A stretch of 64,000 bases of DNA, taken from Sanguibacter keddieii DSM 10542 (GTDB taxonomy: Bacteria; Actinomycetota; Actinomycetes; Actinomycetales; Cellulomonadaceae). The position numbers and the translations under genes were made by a program. The notes beneath the pieces were generated by a model. The model saw nothing but the letters and a program-made list of their open reading frames with translations. It had not been told where the DNA came from and searched no databases. Shown here one piece after another: positions 4,381 to 31,131 of this stretch (position 1 is the stretch's first letter; every line of letters begins with the position of its first letter). Location of the stretch: assembly GCF_000024925.1 (NCBI RefSeq), contig NC_013521.1, positions 3,596,001 through 3,660,000 of the forward strand, in the 5' to 3' direction.

Positions 4381-5063
4381 CCACGCCCGACGGACTCGTC
4401 GACCCCACCCGCCCGCTGCAGCCCGGTCCGACGCTCGCGACGGTCATGCAGCGCATCGCGACCACGCCTGCGGACCGGCTCCCCGCGCCGGGGACCCTCG
4501 ACGCCCTCCGTCCGCAGCCGGGGCGTGCCGTCGTCGACCCGACCGCCGTCGTCGCTGACGCCGTCGCCGACCTCGCACCGACCGCGCGACGGTCCCACGA
4601 GCAGCTCACCTGGCTGCGCACCTTCTTCTCCGCCCCCGGCGACGCCGGAGACCAGCGGGCCCGGGCCGCGCTCGTGGTCACCTGGGTCCTCGACGACCCG
4701 GCGCTGCGCGTCACCCCGGCGCTCGCCGAGGTGCTCGTCGACGGTCGTCGTGCCACCGACTGGGCCCTCACCGTCGTCTCCCGGGTCGCGACCGTCCTCG
4801 CCCCCGTCCTCGACCCGCAGACCTGGCCCAGCACCACCGCCACCCGCGAGGAGGCAGCCCGCGCGGTCCTACGGGCCTGCGGGCTGCACCCGGGTGACGA
4901 GACCGCCGTCGACGCCGAGGCGCGGTGGCAGACGGTCAGCACGGCCATCCAGCGAGTCGTGCTCGCCCAGCTCGCCGAGGAGGCCCAGCGCACCGAAGAG
5001 CTCCAGCGTGCCCTCGCCGCCCGCCGCGCCAAGGAGGCTGCAGCGCAGGTGAGCCATGTCTGA
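4377..5063 (+). CDS. helical operon protein of unknown function, 228 aa
   Basis: The ATG overlaps the previous stop (ATGA), and the 3' end overlaps the next ORF by 8 nt. The sequence is acidic and predicted almost entirely alpha-helical, ending in a charged Glu/Arg/Ala helix (about residues 195-225) that could form a coiled coil. No catalytic motif, signal sequence or membrane segment is seen. Its strict coupling to the MoxR and vWA genes suggests a structural or adaptor subunit of the same complex. The function is not recognised. Confidence 0.75.
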   Translation: MTTPDGLVDPTRPLQPGPTLATVMQRIATTPADRLPAPGTLDALRPQPGRAVVDPTAVVADAVADLAPTARRSHEQLTWLRTFFSAPGDAGDQRARAALVVTWVLDDPALRVTPALAEVLVDGRRATDWALTVVSRVATVLAPVLDPQTWPSTTATREEAARAVLRACGLHPGDETAVDAEARWQTVSTAIQRVVLAQLAEEAQRTEELQRALAARRAKEAAAQVSHV

Positions 5064-6702
5064 GGTCGACGGGGCTGCCAGCGCGTCGGGCGACGGCAGC
5101 TCTGGCTCTCCCGACGCCCGGCCGCTGCCCCGCGGCGTGCCCGACGCCGCGCTCGCCGAGTACGAGGCGCTCGCCGCCGTCGCGCTCACCGACGCCGAGC
5201 GCTGGCCGCTCCTCGACGCCGACGGCTTCGCCAGGCTGCAGACCGTCCGTGACCACCCGCACGCGCCCGAGTGGGTGCACGTCTGCGGCGACCGCGTCGT
5301 CCCCGACGACGTCCCGCTGCTCGCCCGCCGGGCCGACGAGACCATCGACCGCACGTGGGAGCCGCAGGAGGAGACCTGGGCACGCCCCACGTGGGTCGAC
5401 GCCCTGGTCGACCGGGTCGCGACCACCGTCCCCCGCTACCGCGCCCAGGCGCGCCGGGACGGACGAGCACCGCGCACCCTGGACGACGTCGCACCCGTGT
5501 CACGCGAGGACCTGCTGCGCGACCTCGCGTCCTTCGTCCCGGTCGACGTCCCGCTCGACAGAGTCCTCGAGGGGTCGAGCTCCGGCAGCACCGGCGCCGC
5601 GCTCGTCGTACCGCTGCACCCGCTGTCGACCGCCGCCGAGGTCGTCTACCTCACCGCCCTCGCAGCGCAGGCCGGCGTCACCTGGGAGCCCGAGCCCGGA
5701 CGGGCGTGCCTGCTCAACGTCGTCGACCAGCGGACGGCCTTCACCTACGCCTCCGCCCTCACCACCAAGGGCGGCGCCCCGATGGCCCGGATCAACGTGC
5801 ACCCCGACGGCTGGCGCTCCCCCGGGGACCGCGAGGCCTTCCTCGCCGACGTCGACGCCCAGGTCCTCAGCGGCAACCCCCTGTCGCTCCTCGCCCTCGC
5901 CGACCTCGACGTCGACCTGCACCCGCTCGTCGTGGTCTCCGGCGCCGCGCACCTGACCCCGGGCGCACGCCGACGCCTCGAAGGTCGGTGGGGCGTCCCC
6001 GTCGTCGACGTCTACGGGACCCGGGAGGCCGGGCTCGTCGCCGCAGACCTCGACGGGGCACGGGCAGCCGACGGCAGCACCCGCCACACCGTTCTTCCGC
6101 GACGCTTCCACGTCGAGGTCCTCGACACCGACGGGGCGCCCGTCCCCGACGGGGAGCGGGGCGACGTGGTGGTCACCGTGGACGACAACCCCTACCTGCC
6201 GCTGCTCCGCTACCGCACCGGCGACACCGCGGCACTGGTCCGCGAGCGCGGCGAGGACGGCCGGTGGCGGACCGTGCTGCTCGGTCTCGAAGGACGCGCG
6301 GCGGTACGGTTTCAGACCGCCGACGGCCGCTGGGTCCCGTCGGTCGACACCACCCAGCTGCTCCAGGCCTACGGTCTCGCCGCGTGGCACCTGCACCAGG
6401 ACGCCGACGGCACGGTCCGGCTCGCCGCCCTGCCCGCACGGCCGCACGAGGCAGCAGGTGGCAGGCACGCTGCTCCGGGTGGCGGGGCTGCTGGTCCCGG
6501 CGGCGGGTCTGCTGCTCCCGGCGGCGGGGCCGGTCCGACGGGTGGGTGGGCCAGCACGACCGGTGGCTGGTCCGGGGCGTCGGCGCTCGACGCTGCGCTG
6601 CGTGCGCTGCTCGGCCGAGAGGTGACCACCAGCGTCGTGACCCGACCTCGGGACCTCGGTCCCGGGGCGAAGCGTCGCTTCAGCTCCGACCTCGACGTGT
6701 AG
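5056..6702 (+). CDS. adenylate-forming enzyme, phenylacetate-CoA ligase-like
   Basis: The 548-aa protein shows the hallmarks of ANL adenylating enzymes closest in style to PaaK/CapK: a Ser/Gly/Thr phosphate loop (SSGSTG, residues 175-180), an A5-type YGTREAG motif starting at Tyr320 and a YRTGD motif at residues 386-390 (A7). The family activates a carboxylate as an acyl-AMP. The C-terminal lid is atypical: about 40 residues of Gly/Ala/Pro-rich repeats (near 465-505) precede a short end domain containing RDLGPGAKRRF. The terminal Lys could be the A10-type lysine, but this is uncertain. It is the last gene of the MoxR/vWA operon. The acyl substrate and acceptor are unknown, and protein modification is one possibility given its partners. 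Confidence 0.8.
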   Translation: MSEVDGAASASGDGSSGSPDARPLPRGVPDAALAEYEALAAVALTDAERWPLLDADGFARLQTVRDHPHAPEWVHVCGDRVVPDDVPLLARRADETIDRTWEPQEETWARPTWVDALVDRVATTVPRYRAQARRDGRAPRTLDDVAPVSREDLLRDLASFVPVDVPLDRVLEGSSSGSTGAALVVPLHPLSTAAEVVYLTALAAQAGVTWEPEPGRACLLNVVDQRTAFTYASALTTKGGAPMARINVHPDGWRSPGDREAFLADVDAQVLSGNPLSLLALADLDVDLHPLVVVSGAAHLTPGARRRLEGRWGVPVVDVYGTREAGLVAADLDGARAADGSTRHTVLPRRFHVEVLDTDGAPVPDGERGDVVVTVDDNPYLPLLRYRTGDTAALVRERGEDGRWRTVLLGLEGRAAVRFQTADGRWVPSVDTTQLLQAYGLAAWHLHQDADGTVRLAALPARPHEAAGGRHAAPGGGAAGPGGGSAAPGGGAGPTGGWASTTGGWSGASALDAALRALLGREVTTSVVTRPRDLGPGAKRRFSSDLDV

Positions 6703-23295: not shown

Positions 23296-25458
23296 TCACC
23301 GTCTCCGGGCGGCTGTGCTGCGGACCTTCTGCAGGAGCCGGGCGGTGCCGCGGACCGGGAGCGAGCGCACCAGGCTGCGGCGTGCGGTGAGGGCGCCGTC
23401 GACGGGCTCACCGGTGACTGCCGCGCGGATCTGGGCCGCCGGGACCTTGGGAAGGCGGTCTGCGGTGACGAGGCCGTTGGCCTCCTGGAGGGTGTCGGTC
23501 AGCTGGGTGTAGCAGAAGCCCGCGAGCGCCGTCCCGTGCACCGCAGCCATGAGTGCCGCGAAGCGGGCGTCGAGGTCCCAGGCCGACGTCGCCGTCGAGT
23601 ACCCCCACGCCCCGGCGCCGCCTCGCGGGTAGAGGGCGATGCCGCCGAGCTCGGTGAGCATCACGGGCTGGCCGCGGTCTGGTTCGGCGCCCAGGCGCAT
23701 GCGACGGCCTGCCGGCCCCGTGCCGGCCAGCAGCTCGCCGATGCTCGCGTCGTCGCGGTAGCGGTCGGCGATCCCCTGCGGGTCGCCGTCGTAGTCGTGG
23801 AAGGTCCAGATGTCGGAGTCGGTGTGCTCCCAGCCGTCGTTGGAGACCACCGGTCGGGTGCCGTCGAGAGCCTTGGTCAGGTGCCACAGCGCACGCGCGT
23901 AGTGCTCGGCCTGCGGGTCCTGGGCGATCTCCTCGACACCCCAGCTCTCGTTGAGCGGTACCCACGTGACGACCGACGGGTGCGACCTGTCGCGCGCCAC
24001 CACCTCGGTCCACTCGTGGAGCATCCGCTGCACGGCGGTCGGCGAGAACCTGTAGGCGCTCGGCGCCTCGACCCACACGAGCAGCCCGAGCCGGTCCGCC
24101 CAGTAGAGGAACCGCGGGTCCTCGATCTTCTGGTGCACCCGGACGGCGTTGAAGCCCAGCTCGAGGATCAGCTCGACCTCGGCACGCAGCGCCGCCGCGG
24201 ACGGTGCCGCGAGGTGCGACTGCGGCCAGAACCCCTGGGACAGGACCGAGCGCAGCCGGACCGGCGCGCCGTCGATCCGGAAGGCACCGTCGGCGACGTC
24301 GACGGTGCGCAGCCCGAGGTAGGACGTGACGGTGTCGAGCAGCGTGCTGTCGTGCGGCGCGCTGCCGGGCTCGGCACCGTCGGGCAGTGCGCGATCGAGG
24401 ACCGCGCCGTCGGCGGCGGACCGGATCTCGACCCGTGCGTCGACGAGCGTCGGGGTCCCGGGCGCCCAGAGCAGGGCCCCGCGTCGGGCCGGGTCTGCGA
24501 GGGCCGGGACGAGGACGCGGACGTCGACCCGCGGGTCTGCCGAGCGCACGGTCGCCCGCCCCACCTCGGCACCGTCGAGCTCGAGCACCACCAGGACGTC
24601 GACAGCGGCGGCAGGGCGGCGACCGAGGTCGACCCGCAGGTCCACGGCCGCCTCGTCGACGCGCGGCGTCCAGGTGAGGGCGTCGACGCGGGTGCGCGGG
24701 ACGGCCTCGAGCCACACGGGCTGCCAGATGCCGGTGGTCCGGTGGTACCAGATGGAGTGCGGCTCGAGCTCCCAGTCCTGCTTGCCGCGGGGCTGCTCGA
24801 GGTCGTGCGGGTCGTCCTGCGCCCGGACCACGAGCACGTGCGTGTCACGGGTCCGGTCGAGGGCCGCCGTGGCGTCGAGGGTGAAGGGCGTGGACCCGCC
24901 CTCGTGCGAACCGAGCAGGGTGCCGTCCAGCCAGACGTCCGCCCGGTGGTCGACCGCGCCGAGGTGGACGAGGAGCCGGGTCGACGCGTCGCCGGTGCCG
25001 GTGCCGCCCGTGCGGGTGTCGCCCGGTCCGGTGCTGTCCGAAGCCGTGCCGCCTGACCCGAGGTCGCCCAGACCGGTCGCGTCGAGCTCGGCGCGGGTGA
25101 TCTCGCGCCGGTACCAGACGACGGGGTGGAACCCGGTGTCCGCGATGCCGGAGGCCGGCGACTCCGGCGGGAAGGGGACGACGATCTCGCGGGACAGGCC
25201 CGTGGCGTGCTGCCACCCCTCGTCGAGGCCGACGTCGGCGTCGTCGTGGTCGAAGCCCCAGGTCCCGCTGAGGTCGACCCACCGCTCCCGGACGAGCTGA
25301 GGTCGGGGGTAGGTGCCGTCCTGGAGGCTGGCGCGGGGCGGGGTGGAGACCGGCGGTGTGGCTACCGGCGGCGTGGAGACCGAATGGGCGACGGCGTTGG
25401 GATGAGAGGTGGGGGTGGAGGTGGGCACAGCCGAAGGTCGGGGTGCGCGCTCTCTCAC
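23296..25458 (-). CDS. glycoside hydrolase family 2 enzyme
   Basis: The 720-aa protein carries a GH2 sugar-binding domain (FHPVVWYRREI, then VHLGAVDHRADVWLDG), an immunoglobulin-like domain and a TIM-barrel. The acid/base is Glu504 in WVPLNESWGV, and the nucleophile is Glu603 in VMLTELGG. GH2 members are beta-galactosidases, beta-glucuronidases or beta-mannosidases, and the exact sugar cannot be told here. No signal peptide is seen, so the enzyme is probably cytoplasmic. The GTG start overlaps the stop of the upstream small gene (GTGA). The linker near residue 190 has Gly/Asp/Thr low complexity. Confidence 0.92.
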   Translation of the reverse strand: MRERAPRPSAVPTSTPTSHPNAVAHSVSTPPVATPPVSTPPRASLQDGTYPRPQLVRERWVDLSGTWGFDHDDADVGLDEGWQHATGLSREIVVPFPPESPASGIADTGFHPVVWYRREITRAELDATGLGDLGSGGTASDSTGPGDTRTGGTGTGDASTRLLVHLGAVDHRADVWLDGTLLGSHEGGSTPFTLDATAALDRTRDTHVLVVRAQDDPHDLEQPRGKQDWELEPHSIWYHRTTGIWQPVWLEAVPRTRVDALTWTPRVDEAAVDLRVDLGRRPAAAVDVLVVLELDGAEVGRATVRSADPRVDVRVLVPALADPARRGALLWAPGTPTLVDARVEIRSAADGAVLDRALPDGAEPGSAPHDSTLLDTVTSYLGLRTVDVADGAFRIDGAPVRLRSVLSQGFWPQSHLAAPSAAALRAEVELILELGFNAVRVHQKIEDPRFLYWADRLGLLVWVEAPSAYRFSPTAVQRMLHEWTEVVARDRSHPSVVTWVPLNESWGVEEIAQDPQAEHYARALWHLTKALDGTRPVVSNDGWEHTDSDIWTFHDYDGDPQGIADRYRDDASIGELLAGTGPAGRRMRLGAEPDRGQPVMLTELGGIALYPRGGAGAWGYSTATSAWDLDARFAALMAAVHGTALAGFCYTQLTDTLQEANGLVTADRLPKVPAAQIRAAVTGEPVDGALTARRSLVRSLPVRGTARLLQKVRSTAARRR

Positions 25459-25736
25459 CGGACGTCCGTCTGCGCGGCGGTGCCGCCCTCGTCGCCCTCC
25501 CGCTCCGCCGCGCGACGGTCGCGGACGAACTCGGCGAGGTAGGCCAGCATGTCGGGCGACGGCGACGGGCCCAGCCCGAACTCGGCGGCGAGCTCCTCGG
25601 GCGTGGGGTCGTCCTCGGGGTCGGGGTCGGGCCCCACCGCGGCGCGGAGCGACCCGGCGAGCCACGCCACCTCCTCGGCCGTCACCGGCTGTCCGGCGGC
25701 GAGCTTGGCCTCGATCGAGCTGAGCGTCGGTGTCAC
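25455..25736 (-). CDS. small acidic protein of unknown function, 93 aa
   Basis: The ORF starts with a GTG preceded by CGGAGG and ends by overlapping the GH2 gene start, which supports a real coupled gene. The product is acidic with a helical N-terminal half (PTLSSIEAKLAAGQPVTAEEVAWLAGSL) and a PDPDPEDDPTPEELAAEFGL middle. No domain is recognised. It lies 50 nt downstream of the ImmA-like gene on the same strand and may be transcribed with it. Confidence 0.65.
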   Translation of the reverse strand: MTPTLSSIEAKLAAGQPVTAEEVAWLAGSLRAAVGPDPDPEDDPTPEELAAEFGLGPSPSPDMLAYLAEFVRDRRAAEREGDEGGTAAQTDVR

Positions 25737-25786: not shown

Positions 25787-26218
25787 TCACCCGCCGGAGC
25801 GGGAGGCGCGCGCCTCGATGGCTGCCCGGTCGCGCGGGTGCATCTTCTCGACGCGCCGCAGGAGCACCTCGACGGGGACGTCGAGCTGGTCGGCGACGGC
25901 GGCGGTGTCCCCGGGGTGCGCGGCGACCGCGTCGGCGATGGCGTCCACGCTCCCCAGGAGCCGGCGTGCTGCGAGCATGTCCGCCTCGCGCTCGATGCGC
26001 CGGGCGAAGAAGCCCTCGACGGCGGAGACGTGCCCGAGGTCGACGTGGGCGAGCTCGTGCGCGAGCGTGGCCCGCCGCCACGTGCGGTCGAGGTTCTCGT
26101 CGATGAGGATCATGTTCTCGCTGCGTACCCACACCCCGCGGGCGGGGGCGATGTCGCAGCGCTCGATGTCGAGGTCCGGGTGCCGCACCTCGGCGTCCTT
26201 CCACGGGCTGTAGCTCAC
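25787..26218 (-). CDS. ImmA/IrrE-family metallo-endopeptidase
   Basis: The 143-aa protein has the zinc HExxH motif HELAH (His54, Glu55, His58) in the context RRATLAHELAHVDLGH, with the third ligand probably Glu78 in READMLAARRLL. This is the ImmA/IrrE (COG2856) family, whose members cleave partner XRE-type repressors to derepress mobile elements or stress genes. The XRE gene lies directly upstream on the same strand, the classic pairing. The GTG start follows GGGGGAGGG. Its length is typical for the stand-alone catalytic domain. Confidence 0.9.
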   Translation of the reverse strand: MSYSPWKDAEVRHPDLDIERCDIAPARGVWVRSENMILIDENLDRTWRRATLAHELAHVDLGHVSAVEGFFARRIEREADMLAARRLLGSVDAIADAVAAHPGDTAAVADQLDVPVEVLLRRVEKMHPRDRAAIEARASRSGG

Positions 26219-26288: not shown

Positions 26289-26384
26289 CCGAGGCCCCGG
26301 CCTCGTCCACCCGCGCGTCGACGGGCACCGACCATCCTGCGGGCCTGCACCGACACCCGTCCCGTCGCGGACGTGCCACCGAGG

Positions 26385-26789
26385 TCAGCGGCGCTCCCGC
26401 GACCGCCGGATCTCGCGCGCCCTCTCGAGGTAGGTGAGCTTGGCGGCGGCCACGGCCTCGGCCTGCTCCGCCGGGTCGAGGTCGGCGAAGGCCCCGGGGT
26501 CGATGTCGAGCAGCACGCCGGTCAGCACGGCGGCGTCGTCGTCCTGATCGGGAGCGGTGTCGGCCGCGACACCGTCGGCGAGCTCGTCGAGCCTGCCCGG
26601 GGGCCACCCGAGGAACGCCTCGATCTTGCCGAGGCTGCCGGTGCGCGGCCAGCGCACGCCGTTGAGGAAGTCGTTGACGGTCCCGGTCGACAGCTGCGCG
26701 CGCAGCGCGAGCTGGCGCGGGGTGATGCCACGTCGCCGCAGCTCCGTGGTGACGGCGGCGCGGGCGCGGTCCTCGTGCTCTCGGGGCAT
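26385..26789 (-). CDS. XRE-family helix-turn-helix repressor
   Basis: The 134-aa protein has an N-terminal Cro/C1-type helix-turn-helix (ITPRQLALRAQLSTGTVNDFLNGVRWPR, about residues 22-50) and an acidic C-terminal half that would be the substrate region for an ImmA-type protease. The ATG giving MPREHEDRAR is preferred since it follows GAGAGG; the longer start would overlap a conserved promoter-region motif. The gene is divergent from whiB across 245 bp. The pair with ImmA resembles ImmR/ImmA repressor systems of integrative elements. Confidence 0.88.
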   Translation of the reverse strand: MPREHEDRARAAVTTELRRRGITPRQLALRAQLSTGTVNDFLNGVRWPRTGSLGKIEAFLGWPPGRLDELADGVAADTAPDQDDDAAVLTGVLLDIDPGAFADLDPAEQAEAVAAAKLTYLERAREIRRSRERR

Positions 26790-26823
26790 GGTGCGCCTCT
26801 CTGTCGTCGGATGAGCACGAAAG

Positions 26824-26838
26824 TACACCATGTTGGCC
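26824..26838 (-). promoter_or_regulatory. shared 15-bp motif, XRE-gene copy
   Basis: Read on the minus strand it is GGCCAACATGGTGTA, matching 14 of 15 bases of the motif upstream of whiB in opposite orientation. It lies 35-49 nt before the XRE ATG and could be the repressor operator or a common -10 type promoter element. Confidence 0.55.
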
Positions 26839-26929
26839 GAGTCGCCCAGACCCTGCACGTCACTGTCGCGCACTGCGTCGAAGAACGCTGGGGCAAGGCC
26901 TGATCGATGCCCCTAGGGCCTTACTTGAT

Positions 26930-26944
26930 GGTCAACATGGTGTA
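26930..26944 (+). promoter_or_regulatory. shared 15-bp motif, whiB copy
   Basis: GGTCAACATGGTGTA lies 91-105 nt before the whiB ATG. It sits between two direct repeats of ATGGTCAA (26928 and 26948, spacing 20 bp), an arrangement suited to cooperative binding on one DNA face. Confidence 0.55.
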
Positions 26945-27034
26945 ACTATGGTCAAGTGCTCGACGCTCCAGTCGACCACCGAGTACCTCACCCACCGGAC
27001 CACCCGACCACCGGAGACCATCACGGAGGACCCC

Positions 27035-27427
27035 ATGCCCACCCCCGCCCTCATCCGCCCGGCCGCCACCGCACCGCCCGTACCGCCTGTGGCACCCCGA
27101 CCTCGTCCAGACCGCGGCTGGGCCCGCGCGGCGGCCTGCGACGGGACCGACCCCGCACTCTTCGACCCCGTCAACAGGCACGTCGCCGAGCGCGCCACCG
27201 CGGTGTGCGCCACGTGCCCGGTCCGCCGTGCCTGCCTCCTCGAGGCCCTCACCGACGAGAGCGACAGCGCCTACGGGCCGTGGCTGGTCCGCGGCGGGCT
27301 CACCCCCAAGGAACGACGCGAGCTCTCGCCGCACGAGCGGTCCGCACTCGTCGCCGACCTTAGGGCGACCGCCGTCGGCACCCGCACCACCGCACCTGCT
27401 GCCACCATCGCCCCCTCAGCAGCATGA
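27035..27427 (+). CDS. WhiB-family iron-sulfur transcriptional regulator
   Basis: The 130-aa protein has the four WhiB cysteines Cys35, Cys58, Cys61 and Cys67 (C-X22-C-X2-C-X5-C) that ligate a [4Fe-4S] cluster, followed by YGPWLVRGGLTPKERREL, a variant of the G[I/V]WGG turn and basic tail. WhiB proteins bind sigma factors or DNA and are found both in actinobacterial chromosomes and in actinophages. The ATG follows ACGGAGG. The stop overlaps the next ATG (ATGA), tying it to two small membrane proteins. Its promoter is divergent from the XRE repressor and shares a motif with it. Confidence 0.93.
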   Translation: MPTPALIRPAATAPPVPPVAPRPRPDRGWARAAACDGTDPALFDPVNRHVAERATAVCATCPVRRACLLEALTDESDSAYGPWLVRGGLTPKERRELSPHERSALVADLRATAVGTRTTAPAATIAPSAA

Positions 27428-27801
27428 CCTGGGAGCCGACGGCAGCCGCCCTCGTCGTCGGCACCCTCGGCGGGGGGAGCCTCACGGCGCTGCTCCGGGT
27501 GGCGCACGACCACTCGATCGCGCGCCGCGACGCCGACCGCGCCGACGAGACCGCGGACGACGCCCGCTGGGCCACCCTCGTCGAGGTCCAGACCCACGCC
27601 CTCCTCGAGCCGCTCCGGCTCCAGGTCGACCGGCACGCCACCCGCATCGGCGAGCTCGAGCGCGAGGTCCGTGACGTCCGCACGCGCTACTGGCGTGCCG
27701 TCCGCCTGGTGCACGCCCTCTACGACCACATCGCCCGGCACGGCCGTCCCGACGCACCACCGCCGCCAGCCCTGCCGGCCGACCTCACCGATCTCCCGTG
27801 A
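27424..27801 (+). CDS. small membrane-anchored coiled-coil protein, 125 aa
   Basis: One N-terminal membrane helix (about residues 7-24) is followed by a long charged helix (about 33-95) with coiled-coil character (VEVQTHALLEPLRLQVDRHATRIGELEREVRDVRTRY), then a Pro-rich tail. This layout resembles small actinophage proteins encoded next to lysis genes (for example DUF2746-type). It is translationally coupled to whiB. A role as holin, antiholin or lysis regulator is inference from topology and context. Confidence 0.7.
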   Translation: MTWEPTAAALVVGTLGGGSLTALLRVAHDHSIARRDADRADETADDARWATLVEVQTHALLEPLRLQVDRHATRIGELEREVRDVRTRYWRAVRLVHALYDHIARHGRPDAPPPPALPADLTDLP

Positions 27802-27865
27802 CAGCAGCGCCGCACCGCTGCACCGCCAGACCACCCAGCCGCCCCGACCCCGACAGGAGCACCCC

Positions 27866-28279
27866 GTGCCGCACCCACCCGACCCGACCACCCCGACCAC
27901 CGACGCCGGACCTCCACCCACGCCTCCCCCGCCCCTCGCGACACCCTCGCGGGGTTCGCCGGAGACCACCCCCTCGATGCCTCGCGCGCCCCGAGGGGAG
28001 GCGGAGGGGGACCTCGTCACCTCGTGGCTGCGCACCACGGTGCCGACGCTCTGGGGCGCCACGGTCAGCGCGGCCCTCGCCGCCGTCGCACCGCACCTGC
28101 CAGCCGACCTCGCCCAGCCGCTCGAGGCGTTGCTCTCGAGCGACTCGACCACCCTGGTCGTCGTGGTCGGGGCGGTCGGCGCGTGGCACGCGACGTGGCG
28201 GCTGCTCGAGCAGCGCGCACCGCGGTGGCTCGTCCGCCTGGCGCTCGGGTCCCCGCGCACCCCGTCGTACGCGCCGTGA
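27866..28279 (+). CDS. holin-like small membrane protein, 137 aa
   Basis: A Pro/Thr-rich N-terminal segment of about 45 residues precedes two membrane helices (about 57-78 and 93-111). A basic amphipathic end closes with ALGSPRTPSYAP. Similar short two-helix proteins with a PSY-type tail are common beside endolysins in actinophages. The GTG start follows ACAGGAG. It is in line with whiB and the coiled-coil gene and 200 bp before the M15 endolysin. Holin function is likely but unproven. Confidence 0.65.
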   Translation: MPHPPDPTTPTTDAGPPPTPPPPLATPSRGSPETTPSMPRAPRGEAEGDLVTSWLRTTVPTLWGATVSAALAAVAPHLPADLAQPLEALLSSDSTTLVVVVGAVGAWHATWRLLEQRAPRWLVRLALGSPRTPSYAP

Positions 28280-28362
28280 GCCGCACACCGGGCCGCCGAC
28301 GCAGCGGCACGTCCGCGCGAGGGCCTCCGCCAGCACCTGCTCGACGAGCCCGGACCAGGGTC

Positions 28363-28391
28363 TTGGGCACCGCACCCCGAACACCTAGGTT
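28363..28391 (+). promoter_or_regulatory. sigma70-type promoter of the endolysin gene
   Basis: TTGGGC (28363-28368), 17 nt spacer, TAGGTT (28386-28391). The -10 runs into the LexA box, so LexA binding would block RNA polymerase. Confidence 0.6.
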
Positions 28392-28406
28392 CGAACACAT
28401 GTTCGA
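28391..28406 (+). promoter_or_regulatory. LexA binding site (SOS box)
   Basis: TCGAACACATGTTCGA is a perfect match to the Gram-positive/actinobacterial SOS box TCGAAC-N4-GTTCGA. It is 74 nt upstream of the endolysin ATG and overlaps the last base of the -10. Confidence 0.85.
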
Positions 28407-28479
28407 CACGGATCGGGCACACCACAGGCGCTCCGCACCGGAGAGCCCCAGCACCACCGACACCAGAAGGAGGTACACC

Positions 28480-29136
28480 ATGGCCGTCTCGCAGAACGGC
28501 TGGCCGGCGATCGAGTCGGGCACCGACCCGCGGCTCAGCCTCACCCCGTGGGTGACCGGCAGGATCCTCGCCGGTCCCGTCTGCACCGTGCTCAGCCACG
28601 TCGCACGACGGTTCCACGCCGAGGTCGAGAGCATCACCGTCTCCAGCTCCTGGGGGTGGGCCTACAGGCCGATCGCCGGCAGCACCGACATCTCGAACCA
28701 CGCCTCGGGCACCGCGATCGACCTCAACGCCCCGCGCCACCCGCTCGGCGCGGTCGGGACGTTCACCCCGGCGCAGGTCGCCGTCATCCGAGACATCCTC
28801 CGGGACGTCTCGCCGGCGGTCCGCTGGGGCGGCGACTACTCGGGCCGCAAGGACGAGATGCACTTCGAGATCAACACCACGAGCGCGAACGTCGACCGCG
28901 TCGCCGCACGCCTCGTACCCACCCGCACCACCACACGACGAAGGGATGGAAAGACCATGATCTACCGCTCTGGAGGGCGCTACGCCCCGCTGGTCCACGG
29001 CATCTACGCCCACAACGGAGGCTGGGTCGAGCTCCGCTCCGCCGAGGAGCGCACCAACCTCATGGCAGCAGGGGTGAAGGAGGTCTGGATCCTCGAGCAG
29101 TCCCTGCTCAACCTCATGCAGGACTCGCGCGCCTGA
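28480..29136 (+). CDS. M15-family peptidoglycan peptidase (phage-type endolysin)
   Basis: The 218-aa protein has the M15 zinc ligands His74 and Asp81 in SNHASGTAIDLNAP and His128 in DEMHFEI. These are the pattern of L-alanyl-D-glutamate or D-Ala-D-Ala peptidases used as endolysins by phages of Gram-positive hosts. About 65 C-terminal residues (YRSGGRYAPLVHGIYAHNGGWVELRS...) form an extra domain that could bind the wall; I do not recognise it. There is no signal peptide, as expected for a holin-dependent lysin. The ATG follows AGAAGGAGG. A perfect SOS box and promoter lie immediately upstream, so expression should rise after DNA damage. Confidence 0.9.
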   Translation: MAVSQNGWPAIESGTDPRLSLTPWVTGRILAGPVCTVLSHVARRFHAEVESITVSSSWGWAYRPIAGSTDISNHASGTAIDLNAPRHPLGAVGTFTPAQVAVIRDILRDVSPAVRWGGDYSGRKDEMHFEINTTSANVDRVAARLVPTRTTTRRRDGKTMIYRSGGRYAPLVHGIYAHNGGWVELRSAEERTNLMAAGVKEVWILEQSLLNLMQDSRA

Positions 29137-29148
29137 CGCACCGGTGAC

Positions 29149-29182
29149 GGGCGGCCCGCCTCGCGCACGGGGCGGGCCGCCC
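29149..29182 (+). terminator. hairpin terminator after the endolysin gene
   Basis: Perfect 12-bp arms (GGGCGGCCCGCC and complement) with a 10-nt loop start 12 nt after the stop codon. Confidence 0.85.
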
Positions 29183-29242
29183 GCGCAGGGCCGTCGGGTA
29201 CCACCAGGGGTACCCGTCGCGAAGCTGCAGTGCTTACGACGA

Positions 29243-29277
29243 AGGCCCGGTCCCCACGTATCGTGGGAACCGGGCCT
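29243..29277. terminator. hairpin terminator downstream of tRNA-Thr
   Basis: 16-nt arms with one mismatch and a 3-nt loop start 9 nt past the 3' end of the minus-strand tRNA. Confidence 0.8.
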
Positions 29278-29286
29278 CTCGTGCTG

Positions 29287-29362
29287 TGGAGCCGCCTATC
29301 AGAATCGAACTGATGACCTTCTCATTACGAGTGAGACGCTCTACCGACTGAGCTAAGGCGGC
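29287..29362 (-). tRNA. tRNA-Thr (anticodon CGT)
   Basis: A complete cloverleaf is readable on the minus strand. The acceptor GCCGCCT pairs with AGGCGGC, the D-arm has AGCTCAGTCGGTAGAGC, and the anticodon stem TCTCA/TGAGA encloses loop CTCGTAA with anticodon CGT. The T-arm contains GTTCGATTC. The 3' CCA is encoded. A -35/-10 pair lies upstream and a strong hairpin downstream, so it is a single-gene transcription unit. Its 3' end faces the phage-like module, making it a candidate integration target. The rest of the 336-bp stretch between the endolysin and the Tap peptidase gene holds only this unit, its promoter and the two hairpins. Confidence 0.95.
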
Positions 29363-29416
29363 CGACCTCTCCCGCGCCCGGAGACGAGTCACTGACGCAG
29401 GTGAAGAACCTCGCAC

Positions 29417-29446
29417 ACTCTACCCAGAGATCGACCCCGGCACCAA
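29417..29446 (-). promoter_or_regulatory. tRNA-Thr promoter
   Basis: On the minus strand TTGGTG (29446-29441), an 18-nt spacer and TAGAGT (29422-29417) precede the tRNA by about 55 nt. Confidence 0.55.
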
Positions 29447-29472
29447 AACGAGGTCTCCGCGAGGCTCGAGGC

Positions 29473-31131
29473 TCAGCAGACGAGGCCCTCGTCGGGCACC
29501 GTGCCGTCGGTGAAGTAGGCGTCGACGGTGTCGAGGACGCAGGAGTTCGACTGGCCGTAGGCGGTGTGCCCCTCGCCCTCGTAGGTGACGAGGACGCCGG
29601 ACTCGAGCTGCTCGGCGAGGCCCTGGGCCCACACGTAGGGCGTCGCGGGGTCGTTGGTCGTCCCGATGACCAGGATCGGCGCGGCGCCGCTCGCGGCGAG
29701 GTCGCCGGTCTTCTCGGCCTGCGGGAACGGCCAGTCGGCGCAGCCGAGCCCGCCGTAGGTGAAGAACTCTCCGACGGTCGGGGCGGCCGCGACGATCTCG
29801 TCGGCCTCGGCGTCGAGCGTGGCCATGTCGGCGTCGCTGCGGGAGTCGAGGCAGTTGATGGCGCGGAAGGCCTCGCCCTGGTTGTCGGCGTAGGTGCCGT
29901 CGGAGTTGCGGGAGTTGTAGCTGTCGGCCGAGGCCAGCAGCCCGCTGCCGTCGCCGTCGCTGATCGCCGCGTCGAGGGCGGCGGTCAGCTGGGGCCACAG
30001 CAGCTCGGAGTACAGCGGCTGGGCGATCCCGTAGAAGGCGAGGGTCTGGGTGAGCGGCCGTGCGGGGTCACCGGTCGGCATCGGGTTGGCGAGGATCTGG
30101 TCCAGCAGTCCGGTGACCTGCGCGAGCGCCTCGTCGGTGGTCCCGGTGAGCGGGCAGCCGGACCCTGCGAGGCAGTCCTCGACGAAGGCGGTGAGCGCGT
30201 TCTCGAAGCCGACGGCCTGCTGCAGGCTCATCTCGTGGTCGGTGAGCCGCAGGTCGATCGCGCCGTCGAGCACCATCCGTCCGACGTTCTCCGGGTACAG
30301 GCCCGCGTAGGTCGCGCCCAGCTGCGTGCCGTACGAGAAGCCGAGGTAGTTGAGCTGGGCGTCGCCGACCACGTGGCGGATGACGTCCATGTCGCGCGCG
30401 GAGGACTGCGTGTCGACCTCGCCGAGCACCGGGCCGGTGTTCTCGAGGCACTTCTCGCCGAAGGCCTTCGCGTCGGCCTGCATCTCGGCGAGGCCGGCGT
30501 CGTCCGGGGTGTACGTCTTGGCGTCCGAGACGTCACGCTCGGCGTCGCTCAGGCACGCCACCGGGCTGGACTCGCCGACGCCGCGCGGGTCGAAGCCCAG
30601 GACGTCGAACTCCTCGAGCAGCGGCTTGCCGAAGATGAACGGCACGTACTGGACGAACTCGACCCCCGAGCCGCCAGGTCCACCCGGGTTGATGAGGACG
30701 GTGCCCTTGCGCTCACCGCTCGAGAGGTAGCGCTTGGCGCCGAGGGTGATGGTGTCGGCCGCGGGGTCGTCCCAGTCGAAGGGGACCTCGATGTCGGCGC
30801 ACTCGAAGCCGCTGCCGCAGTCGGACCACTCGACGGTCTGCTCGTAGAACGGCAGCAGGTCGGCCTCGATGCCGTCGGTGCTCGGTGCGGCGCTGCTCGC
30901 GCCGTCGGACGGGTCCGCCCCGGCCGAGGGCGACGAGCCGTCGACGCCCGTCTGGACCTTGGTCCCCGGGTCGCTGCTGCACGCGGCGAGCACGAGCGAG
31001 AGCCCCGCGACGGCCGCGGCCGCGCGCACCAGGCGGCTGCGCCGTGCGGACGGGCGCGGCGGCTGCGCTGCCCCCGCGGGCAAGTTCGGGTCGGGCACAG
31101 GGGACGCGGTCTCGTGGAGAGCTGGGGTCAC
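29473..31131 (-). CDS. exported alpha/beta-hydrolase lipoprotein, tripeptidyl aminopeptidase (Tap) family
   Basis: The 552-aa protein has a signal with a lipobox (LVLAACSS, lipidated Cys51). The linker is rich in Ser/Asp/Ala. An alpha/beta-hydrolase core follows with nucleophile Ser266 in GFSYGTQ, an oxyanion HG-like NPGGPGGSG motif, the acid in NDPATPY and the catalytic His in GEGHTAYG. The C-terminal part matches the TAP-like domain of Streptomyces secreted tripeptidyl aminopeptidases. It probably trims peptides at the cell surface. The GTG start has a weak ribosome-binding site; GTG 31029 would give a shorter signal peptide. Confidence 0.92.
   Translation of the reverse strand: MTPALHETASPVPDPNLPAGAAQPPRPSARRSRLVRAAAAVAGLSLVLAACSSDPGTKVQTGVDGSSPSAGADPSDGASSAAPSTDGIEADLLPFYEQTVEWSDCGSGFECADIEVPFDWDDPAADTITLGAKRYLSSGERKGTVLINPGGPGGSGVEFVQYVPFIFGKPLLEEFDVLGFDPRGVGESSPVACLSDAERDVSDAKTYTPDDAGLAEMQADAKAFGEKCLENTGPVLGEVDTQSSARDMDVIRHVVGDAQLNYLGFSYGTQLGATYAGLYPENVGRMVLDGAIDLRLTDHEMSLQQAVGFENALTAFVEDCLAGSGCPLTGTTDEALAQVTGLLDQILANPMPTGDPARPLTQTLAFYGIAQPLYSELLWPQLTAALDAAISDGDGSGLLASADSYNSRNSDGTYADNQGEAFRAINCLDSRSDADMATLDAEADEIVAAAPTVGEFFTYGGLGCADWPFPQAEKTGDLAASGAAPILVIGTTNDPATPYVWAQGLAEQLESGVLVTYEGEGHTAYGQSNSCVLDTVDAYFTDGTVPDEGLVC

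Follow-up and report, generated by a model that had tools for sequence, protein, structure and literature searches.

We identified a phage-derived lysis island that is kept on the chromosome of Sanguibacter keddieii and that may act as a self-lysis module, triggered by DNA damage through two inputs; we put the probability of this reading at about one half. The recurrence of similar arrangements in related bacteria suggests a built-in self-destruct module. The S. keddieii genome is a single contig of 4,253,413 bases, and the coordinates below refer to the window, i.e., the 64-kb stretch of it that we analyzed. Directly observed are the gene content of the island, the conservation of its LexA (SOS) box and of one operator block, the recurrence of the layout, nearly empty sites in relatives, and purifying selection.

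A lysis island beside a tRNA-Thr gene

The island comprises six phage-type genes between an MFS gene and a tRNA-Thr gene, with the lysin last. Leftward from tRNA-Thr(CGT) (29287–29362, minus strand), which forms the edge of the island, are an M15 endolysin, the SOS box, two membrane proteins that we call TM2 and TM1, and a WhiB-like regulator; diverging from these are an XRE-type repressor, an M78 metallopeptidase, and a small ORF. The preliminary description of this locus pictured a lone lysin. The lysin is the only gene downstream of the box, as stated there, but the repressor/protease pair, the WhiB-like gene, and the two lysis-type membrane proteins lie directly upstream.

The WhiB-like regulator (27035–27427, plus strand; Pfam WhiB, 2.5e-15) is the first gene of the membrane-protein operon, and its stop codon overlaps the start of TM1 (27424–27801, plus strand). 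TM1 has one hydrophobic segment and matches phrog_1397; the neighbors of its relative in Microbacterium phage Metamorphoo include lysin A, a membrane protein, and a holin. TM2 (27866–28279, plus strand) is holin-like, matches phrog_10742 (a family of unknown function), and has two weakly hydrophobic segments (1.3–1.6 in the hydropathy scan, a threshold so low that one M15 enzyme also reaches it). The one phage relative of TM2, a weak match (E = 8e-3), is a membrane protein that adjoins the endolysin in Arthrobacter phage Aoka. TM1 and TM2 are thus putative holins. Among the 14 stretches found in viral contigs, there was no relative of TM1. The small ORF (25455–25736, minus strand; about 93 amino acids), which lies beside the protease, was read by eye, and there is a similar ORF at the same position in Sanguibacter inulinus.

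We recognized no virion genes at 21–36 kb (nine proteins were checked with Pfam and the rest by eye), in agreement with the earlier statement that no phage structural genes are visible around the lysin. There were no convincing matches to known defense or NCBI families, and PADLOC gave only weak similarities for the M78 and M15 proteins. We looked for a repeat of a 20-nt piece from the 3' half of the tRNA-Thr, as might mark an att site, but this piece occurs only once in the window. The direct-repeat families listed near the island (20 of 53) are low-identity, and we rejected an attachment repeat. The gap between the MFS gene and the island holds a gene of glycoside hydrolase family 2 in S. 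keddieii (23296–25665) and an unrelated 581-amino-acid ORF in S. inulinus (positions 4737–6482 of locus L023). Because different genes occupy this gap in the two species, the site appears to collect genes.

A perfect SOS box upstream of the lysin

As reported earlier, an exact LexA-type site is present at 28391–28406 (TCGAACACATGTTCGA; a palindrome, with no strand assigned). It matches TCGAAC-N4-GTTCGA perfectly, it is the sole exact copy in the window (0.001 are expected from base composition), and it ends 73 nt before the start of the lysin gene. The box agrees with the LexA consensus of another genus: ChIP-seq in Streptomyces venezuelae gave tCGAAC-N4-GNNCGa (PMC9380542, in part), and the window's 16-bp palindrome overlaps a -10-like element.

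The preliminary description also placed a promoter here, and this held in part. TTGGGC (28363–28368) and TAGGTT (28386–28391) are separated by 17 nt (the whole element spans 28363–28391, plus strand), and the -10-like element and the box overlap by one base. But the -35 element is a poor one, and no sigma-70 promoter was detected at these elements by a scan for the consensus. The -10-like element and the box are both kept in S. inulinus (TAGGTTCGAACACATGTTCGA versus TAGATTCGTACACGTGTTCGA), where the island's box has one mismatch. The predicted fold of the leader RNA was unremarkable.

Across the S. keddieii genome, we found 12 sites with the core CGAACN4GTTCG (3.6 expected) and eight with the full 16-mer (0.07 expected). 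One core site (L008) is about 150 nt upstream of recA; another (L007) is about 0.7 kb upstream of a Y-family polymerase gene, with an ORF in between; and a third (L004) falls within an ORF. Could the window's box be a chance match, or could LexA bind there without controlling the lysin? By chance alone, 3.6 of the 12 exact 10-base cores are expected, and L004 is inside an ORF. But the excess of full 16-mers, the expectation of 0.001 in the window, the conservation of the box beside the orthologous lysin, and its presence beside similar lysins make this explanation extremely improbable. Conservation at the orthologue, along with box-lysin loci elsewhere (see below), supports the prediction that LexA controls a phage-type lysin that is free of virion genes.

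Three other perfect boxes in this genome (L005, L010, and L065) adjoin two DUF222/HNH proteins and a third ORF that looks alike by eye. These boxes hint at a possible SOS-controlled HNH family in S. keddieii.

The M15 endolysin and its C-terminal domain

The lysin gene (28480–29136, plus strand; Pfam M15_4, E = 3.7e-11; PHROG endolysin, E = 2.7e-32) is followed by the tRNA-Thr. The protein has no clearly hydrophobic segment in a hydropathy scan, and so the earlier identification of an M15 endolysin without a signal peptide was borne out. H74, D81, E126, and H128 are invariant across five aligned sequences; we take these to be the zinc-binding and catalytic residues. The structure model had a mean pLDDT of 56 and was set aside, and a profile search against solved structures gave 0 matches. 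We also considered carriage on plasmids: 35 plasmid records have M15 relatives, but all are under 60% identity and none spans 80% of the query, so we rejected this.

The C-terminal domain (28957–29136, plus strand) has its own in-frame ATG, which is a candidate internal translation start with a weak Shine-Dalgarno-like sequence. In nine of nine enzymes, an in-frame ATG and such a sequence come just before the C-terminal domain, with the list of accepted Shine-Dalgarno-like sequences widened to admit the window's weak one. An in-frame internal start before the C-terminal domain, here only predicted, is also a feature of two-polypeptide endolysins (PMC9430671, in part). For the two islands that we compared, this domain of the M15 enzyme is 67% and 76% identical to that of the M23 enzyme from the same island, as compared to 14–39% between loci, so the domain seems to be swapped as one unit. 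It may have a role in wall binding or assembly.

A repressor/protease pair and paired putative operators

The M78 (ImmA/IrrE-like) metallopeptidase gene lies at 25787–26218 on the minus strand (PF06114, 1.5e-10; PHROG 87 metallo-protease, 6.7e-16); its start codon is uncertain. Its HExxH motif is HELAH, as in S. inulinus and in a viral-collection locus described below (L083), and is HELGH in another related island (L263). The XRE-type HTH repressor (26385–26789, minus strand; Pfam HTH_3, 6.9e-6), whose start was set by comparison with S. inulinus, is ImmR-like by position. In Pfam it has HTH matches only, without a peptidase domain.

The divergent region between the XRE and whiB genes contains paired operator-like repeats. 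One putative repressor operator is at 26934–26944 (plus strand), within a block (AACATGGTGTAAC) that is common to S. inulinus, and the other is its inverted copy AACATGGTGTA at 26824–26834 (minus strand). These are the only two copies within one mismatch in the 64 kb, where 0.03 are expected. No terminator-like site was found at 26300–29500.

In ICEBs1 (ImmR/ImmA) and in the Listeria monocin (CI-like/MpaR), an M78/DUF955 protease removes the repressor (PMC6872733, in part). The island resembles these switches in that an HTH repressor stands beside an M78/DUF955 protease and diverges from the early genes. Given this shared layout, we propose that damage would free the membrane genes via the protease. 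The ICEBs1 and monocin switches control an entire mobile element or a tailocin; only lysis genes follow here.

The same locus in other Sanguibacter genomes

The lysin is present in two of the six Sanguibacter genomes (S. keddieii, G000, and S. inulinus, G001). In S. inulinus, the island is at the same place, with the box starting 53 nt before the orthologous lysin, so the combination of box and lysin, for which the preliminary description had proposed a comparison of related genomes, is kept in this species. The S. inulinus island also has an M23 enzyme and an enzyme-like protein with a peptidoglycan-binding domain. In three genomes (G002, G003, and G004) the site is nearly empty: no more than about 1.2 kb separates the tRNA-Thr from the MFS gene, and any ORFs in this gap are small. 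In the sixth (G005), other genes are beside the tRNA-Thr, and the stretch that we examined does not reach the MFS gene.

Between S. keddieii and S. inulinus, dN/dS for the six cassette genes ranges from 0.10 (M78) to 0.52 (lysin), with 0.47 for TM2 and 0.26 for the catalytic part of the lysin; for seven flanking genes it is 0.06–0.41. TM2 and the lysin change faster than all seven of the flanking genes tested. Upper bootstrap limits of pN/pS for the cassette genes are at most 0.81, and dS is 0.60–0.82 for cassette genes versus 0.44–0.67 for flanking genes. These values fit constraint and shared ancestry, and the cassette genes show purifying selection.

An alternative is that the island is the remnant of a decaying prophage: a phage or satellite at the tRNA-Thr would have lost its other genes, while its immunity and lysis ends linger unused and the box is left over. 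The position at the edge of a tRNA gene, the phage-type genes, and the fast change of the lysin and TM2 relative to the flanks would all be expected of a remnant. But the genes are intact and show purifying selection between two species, the box and the operator block are conserved, and the window lacks a second copy of the 20-nt tRNA piece that would point to an att site. We consider a remnant to be unlikely. Further evidence on both sides comes from other genera (see below).

Similar islands and solitary box-lysins elsewhere

We searched 396 genomes of the order for relatives of TM2, and 14 had matches. The 14 stretches that we examined hold 15 of the 18 TM2 places outside the window; weak places in G202, G228, and G435 were left out. 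For relatives, genes were called with a simple GC-frame script, mostly without checking families, and descriptions such as "prophage-like" or "no virion genes" are by eye.

One of these stretches (L263), from a closed genome of another genus in the same family (G152), contains an island with a perfect box at an unrelated place. There, an M78 gene and an ORF in the repressor's place diverge from an HTH gene, an amidase, a membrane protein in the place of TM1, TM2, the box, an M23 enzyme, and an M15 enzyme. The HTH gene is just under the Pfam cut-off and the ORF in the repressor's place has no Pfam match. By eye, we recognized no virion genes in the 7.7 and 6.5 kb on either side. A similar layout at an unrelated place argues against the remnant explanation. 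Judged by gene sizes, most of the other 13 stretches are prophage-like, and in none of them does a box scoring 11/12 or better lie within 1 kb of TM2.

A second similar arrangement is on a 4.5-kb contig from a viral collection (L083), which is too short to reveal its surroundings. The order is M78, an ORF in the repressor's place (without a Pfam match), an amidase, a protein in the place of TM1, TM2, a perfect box, M15, and M23. The one-segment protein in the place of TM1 matches PHROGs other than phrog_1397, the best of which is a minor tail protein family. The likeness of the G152 and L083 arrangements to the S. keddieii island is partly by layout only.

Besides the islands, there are solitary lysins with boxes. 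S. inulinus has a second M15 gene (L164) between tRNA-Met and tRNA-Asn, with a box that starts 58 nt upstream, and G549, from another genus, has one with a box starting 80 nt upstream (L409). The latter is about 1.7 kb from the orthologous tRNA-Thr, a TAP-type hydrolase, holB, and tmk, so two genera have a box-lysin at this tRNA-Thr, either inherited or inserted repeatedly. Using blastp, we recognized no relatives of TM1 or TM2 beside either solitary lysin. The two-input model does not explain this.

The remnant explanation gains from some of these loci. In G557, a related island (L390) is damaged: it has no box of at least 11/12, and TM2 is interrupted near its start. At the tRNA-Met/tRNA-Asn place that the solitary lysin occupies in S. 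inulinus, G046 has a prophage-like region (by eye). Also, among 42 viral-collection loci found with TM2, four have a box starting 43–81 nt before the TM2 match, so some prophages may also put LexA on their lysis genes.

We noted several other features of these loci. At 8.3–11.3 kb of L390 there appears to be a degenerate lysis island with two M23 genes that have like beginnings, beside an RNase P RNA look-alike (by eye). In G046, a perfect SOS box lies between the tRNA-Met and the prophage-like region (around position 7259 of L267), and the site of the solitary S. inulinus lysin (tRNA-Met/tRNA-Asn) resembles this place. The four viral-collection loci with boxes before TM2 (L225, L229, L231, and L233) have the box between TM2 and a gene with a peptidoglycan-binding-domain match. 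In three viral-collection loci, the far end has a perfect SOS box just ahead of a short sequence that is similar in all three (L195, position 13316; L205, 11301; and L207, 12172).

How specific is the box?

M15 matches were present in 54 of the 221 genomes of the family, at 84 places in total. Among the best 37 of these 84 places, four have a box of at least 11/12 that starts within 100 nt of the lysin (the window, the S. inulinus island, and the two solitary lysins), as compared to 0.036 expected; this count was made after the fact and includes one orthologous pair. At one further place among the best 37, L263, the box precedes the M23-M15 pair. The preliminary description took related lysins without an SOS box as evidence against its proposal, and for more distant lysins this is what we saw: 32 of the best 37 places have no box in up to 1.2 kb upstream, with some stretches shortened by contig ends.

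We also scanned 121 M15 relatives from several collections, and a box scoring at least 11/12 lies within 300 nt only in the window, in L083, and at the island and the solitary lysin of S. inulinus. (One place is included twice, as L012 and L023, and five loci with the lysin at or near a contig edge were left out: L045, L052, L132, L148, and L159.) When 107 viral loci with M15 (L083–L162 and L234–L260) were scanned over their whole length, a box scoring 11/12 or better turned up in eight, and it lies before the lysin in L083 alone. A viral search for M23 gave 80 loci; among these, the box scan covered L083 alone. A pattern search for viral contigs with a box and an M15 start found 9 and 6 candidates, and we rejected all 15 as chance matches (box scores of 6–9 out of 12); L083 would escape this pattern, which requires TGTTCGA no more than 80 nt from the start. 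Some M15 genes in L025–L052 (Terrabacter, Phycicoccus, Knoellia, and other genera) have recurring chromosomal neighbors, and in those scanned, no box scoring 11/12 or better lies within 300 nt.

Might the lysin release a particle or protect against phages?

Another potential explanation is that the island is a release module for a particle that is made elsewhere, such as a contractile injection system at 2.95–2.97 Mb, an unrecognized tailocin or gene transfer agent, or a helper phage. The genome does have a tail-sheath gene (PF04984, 1.7e-18) at 2.957 Mb, about 0.67 Mb from the island, in a contractile injection-like cluster (about 2.955–2.968 Mb; L075 and L076) with tube- and spike-like ORFs (by eye), and such particles need an exit. 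But the sheath is found in G000, G003, and G005 and the lysin in G000 and G001. Just one Sanguibacter genome of the six has both, so sheath and lysin are not distributed together, and we rejected release of the contractile system as the main reading. The 36 kb around the sheath contain no CGAACN4GTTCG, and nothing in the S. keddieii genome matches the HK97 capsid family; a tape-measure match was below the cut-off. Tailocin release, which the preliminary description had raised, is thus disfavored as far as the contractile system is concerned, and a release module of any of these kinds is quite improbable. In Pseudomonas aeruginosa, explosive cell lysis is said to involve a subpopulation that is lysed by a phage-type endolysin encoded in a pyocin cluster; we recognized no particle genes around the S. 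keddieii island.

The same parts and the same trigger could also serve altruistic lysis against phages, if DNA-damaging or SOS-provoking phages trip the module before their own lysis. Many defense modules are phage-derived. But PADLOC had no match beyond the weak M78 and M15 similarities, and we consider a primarily anti-phage role to be very unlikely.

A model with two damage inputs

Under the self-lysis reading, LexA would occupy the box at the lysin promoter, and once RecA is activated, LexA would fall and the M15 endolysin would be made, possibly as both the full-length protein and a separate C-terminal domain. The XRE repressor would hold the paired operators between its own gene and whiB. 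After damage, the M78 protease would cleave this repressor, as ImmA does, and with the repressor gone the WhiB-TM1-TM2 operon would be made. TM1 and TM2 would then give the cytoplasmic lysin access to the wall, and the cell would burst. LexA binding, protease action, holin action, and lysis are all predictions from the genes, and any benefit would presumably go to kin, through extracellular DNA, nutrients, vesicles, or phage blocking.

The self-lysis reading is favored by the S. inulinus box, the nearly empty sites in G002–G004, the L263 and L083 islands, and the two solitary box-lysins, as well as by the box count (four of the best 37 places versus 0.036 expected), the operator pair, the dN/dS values, and the absence of an HK97 match. 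It is weakened by the presence of the island in only two of six genomes, the orthologous pair in a post-hoc count, and the fast change of TM2 and the lysin. The layout-only likeness of the G152 and L083 islands, the 4 of 42 viral-collection loci that have a box ahead of TM2, the solitary lysins without membrane genes, and the damaged L390 also weaken it.

Relation to known systems

The closest precedent is alpRABCDE of Pseudomonas aeruginosa, a chromosomal DNA-damage lysis pathway (PMC7969949, in part). Both systems have chromosomal phage-derived self-lysis genes with a putative holin, and both are triggered by damage via a repressor and a positive regulator (predicted here from the genes alone). 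Given that phage-free DNA-damage lysis genes are known in Pseudomonas, the preliminary suggestion of an undescribed system was too strong. As described in that source, alp has the self-cleaving repressor AlpR and the antiterminator AlpA. The island has instead a LexA box on the lysin, an XRE repressor with a separate M78 protease, and WhiB in the place of the regulator, and related islands have several wall enzymes. Since we found no self-cleaving repressor (the XRE protein has no peptidase domain in Pfam), we do not classify the island as a member of the alp family.

In placing a lysin and membrane proteins side by side, the island resembles actinophage lysis cassettes with several membrane proteins (PMC9671378, in part). 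Unlike the island, the cassettes of Metamorphoo and Aoka are flanked by tail genes and do not include an immunity pair. Other cellular uses of phage lysis cassettes have been reviewed (PMC8987985, in part). In a partial search of the literature, we found no account of such an island in Actinobacteria.

More broadly, we tentatively suggest, with somewhat less confidence than an even chance, that Actinobacteria of this family have dedicated programmed lysis that was domesticated from phages more than once, that is kept at the tRNA-Thr in two genera, and that needs two independent damage inputs: LexA for the wall enzyme and the M78 protease for the membrane proteins. Lysis would then occur only after strong or lasting damage. 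If the self-lysis reading is correct, then actinobacteria would have an equivalent of the Pseudomonas alp suicide module that is assembled from different regulators. Natural sets of lysins with exchanged C-terminal domains would be on offer, and DNA-damaging antibiotics could trigger phage-free lysis in such actinobacteria. Finally, the relatives with nearly empty sites would make it possible to test why a single cell should keep a set of genes for killing itself.
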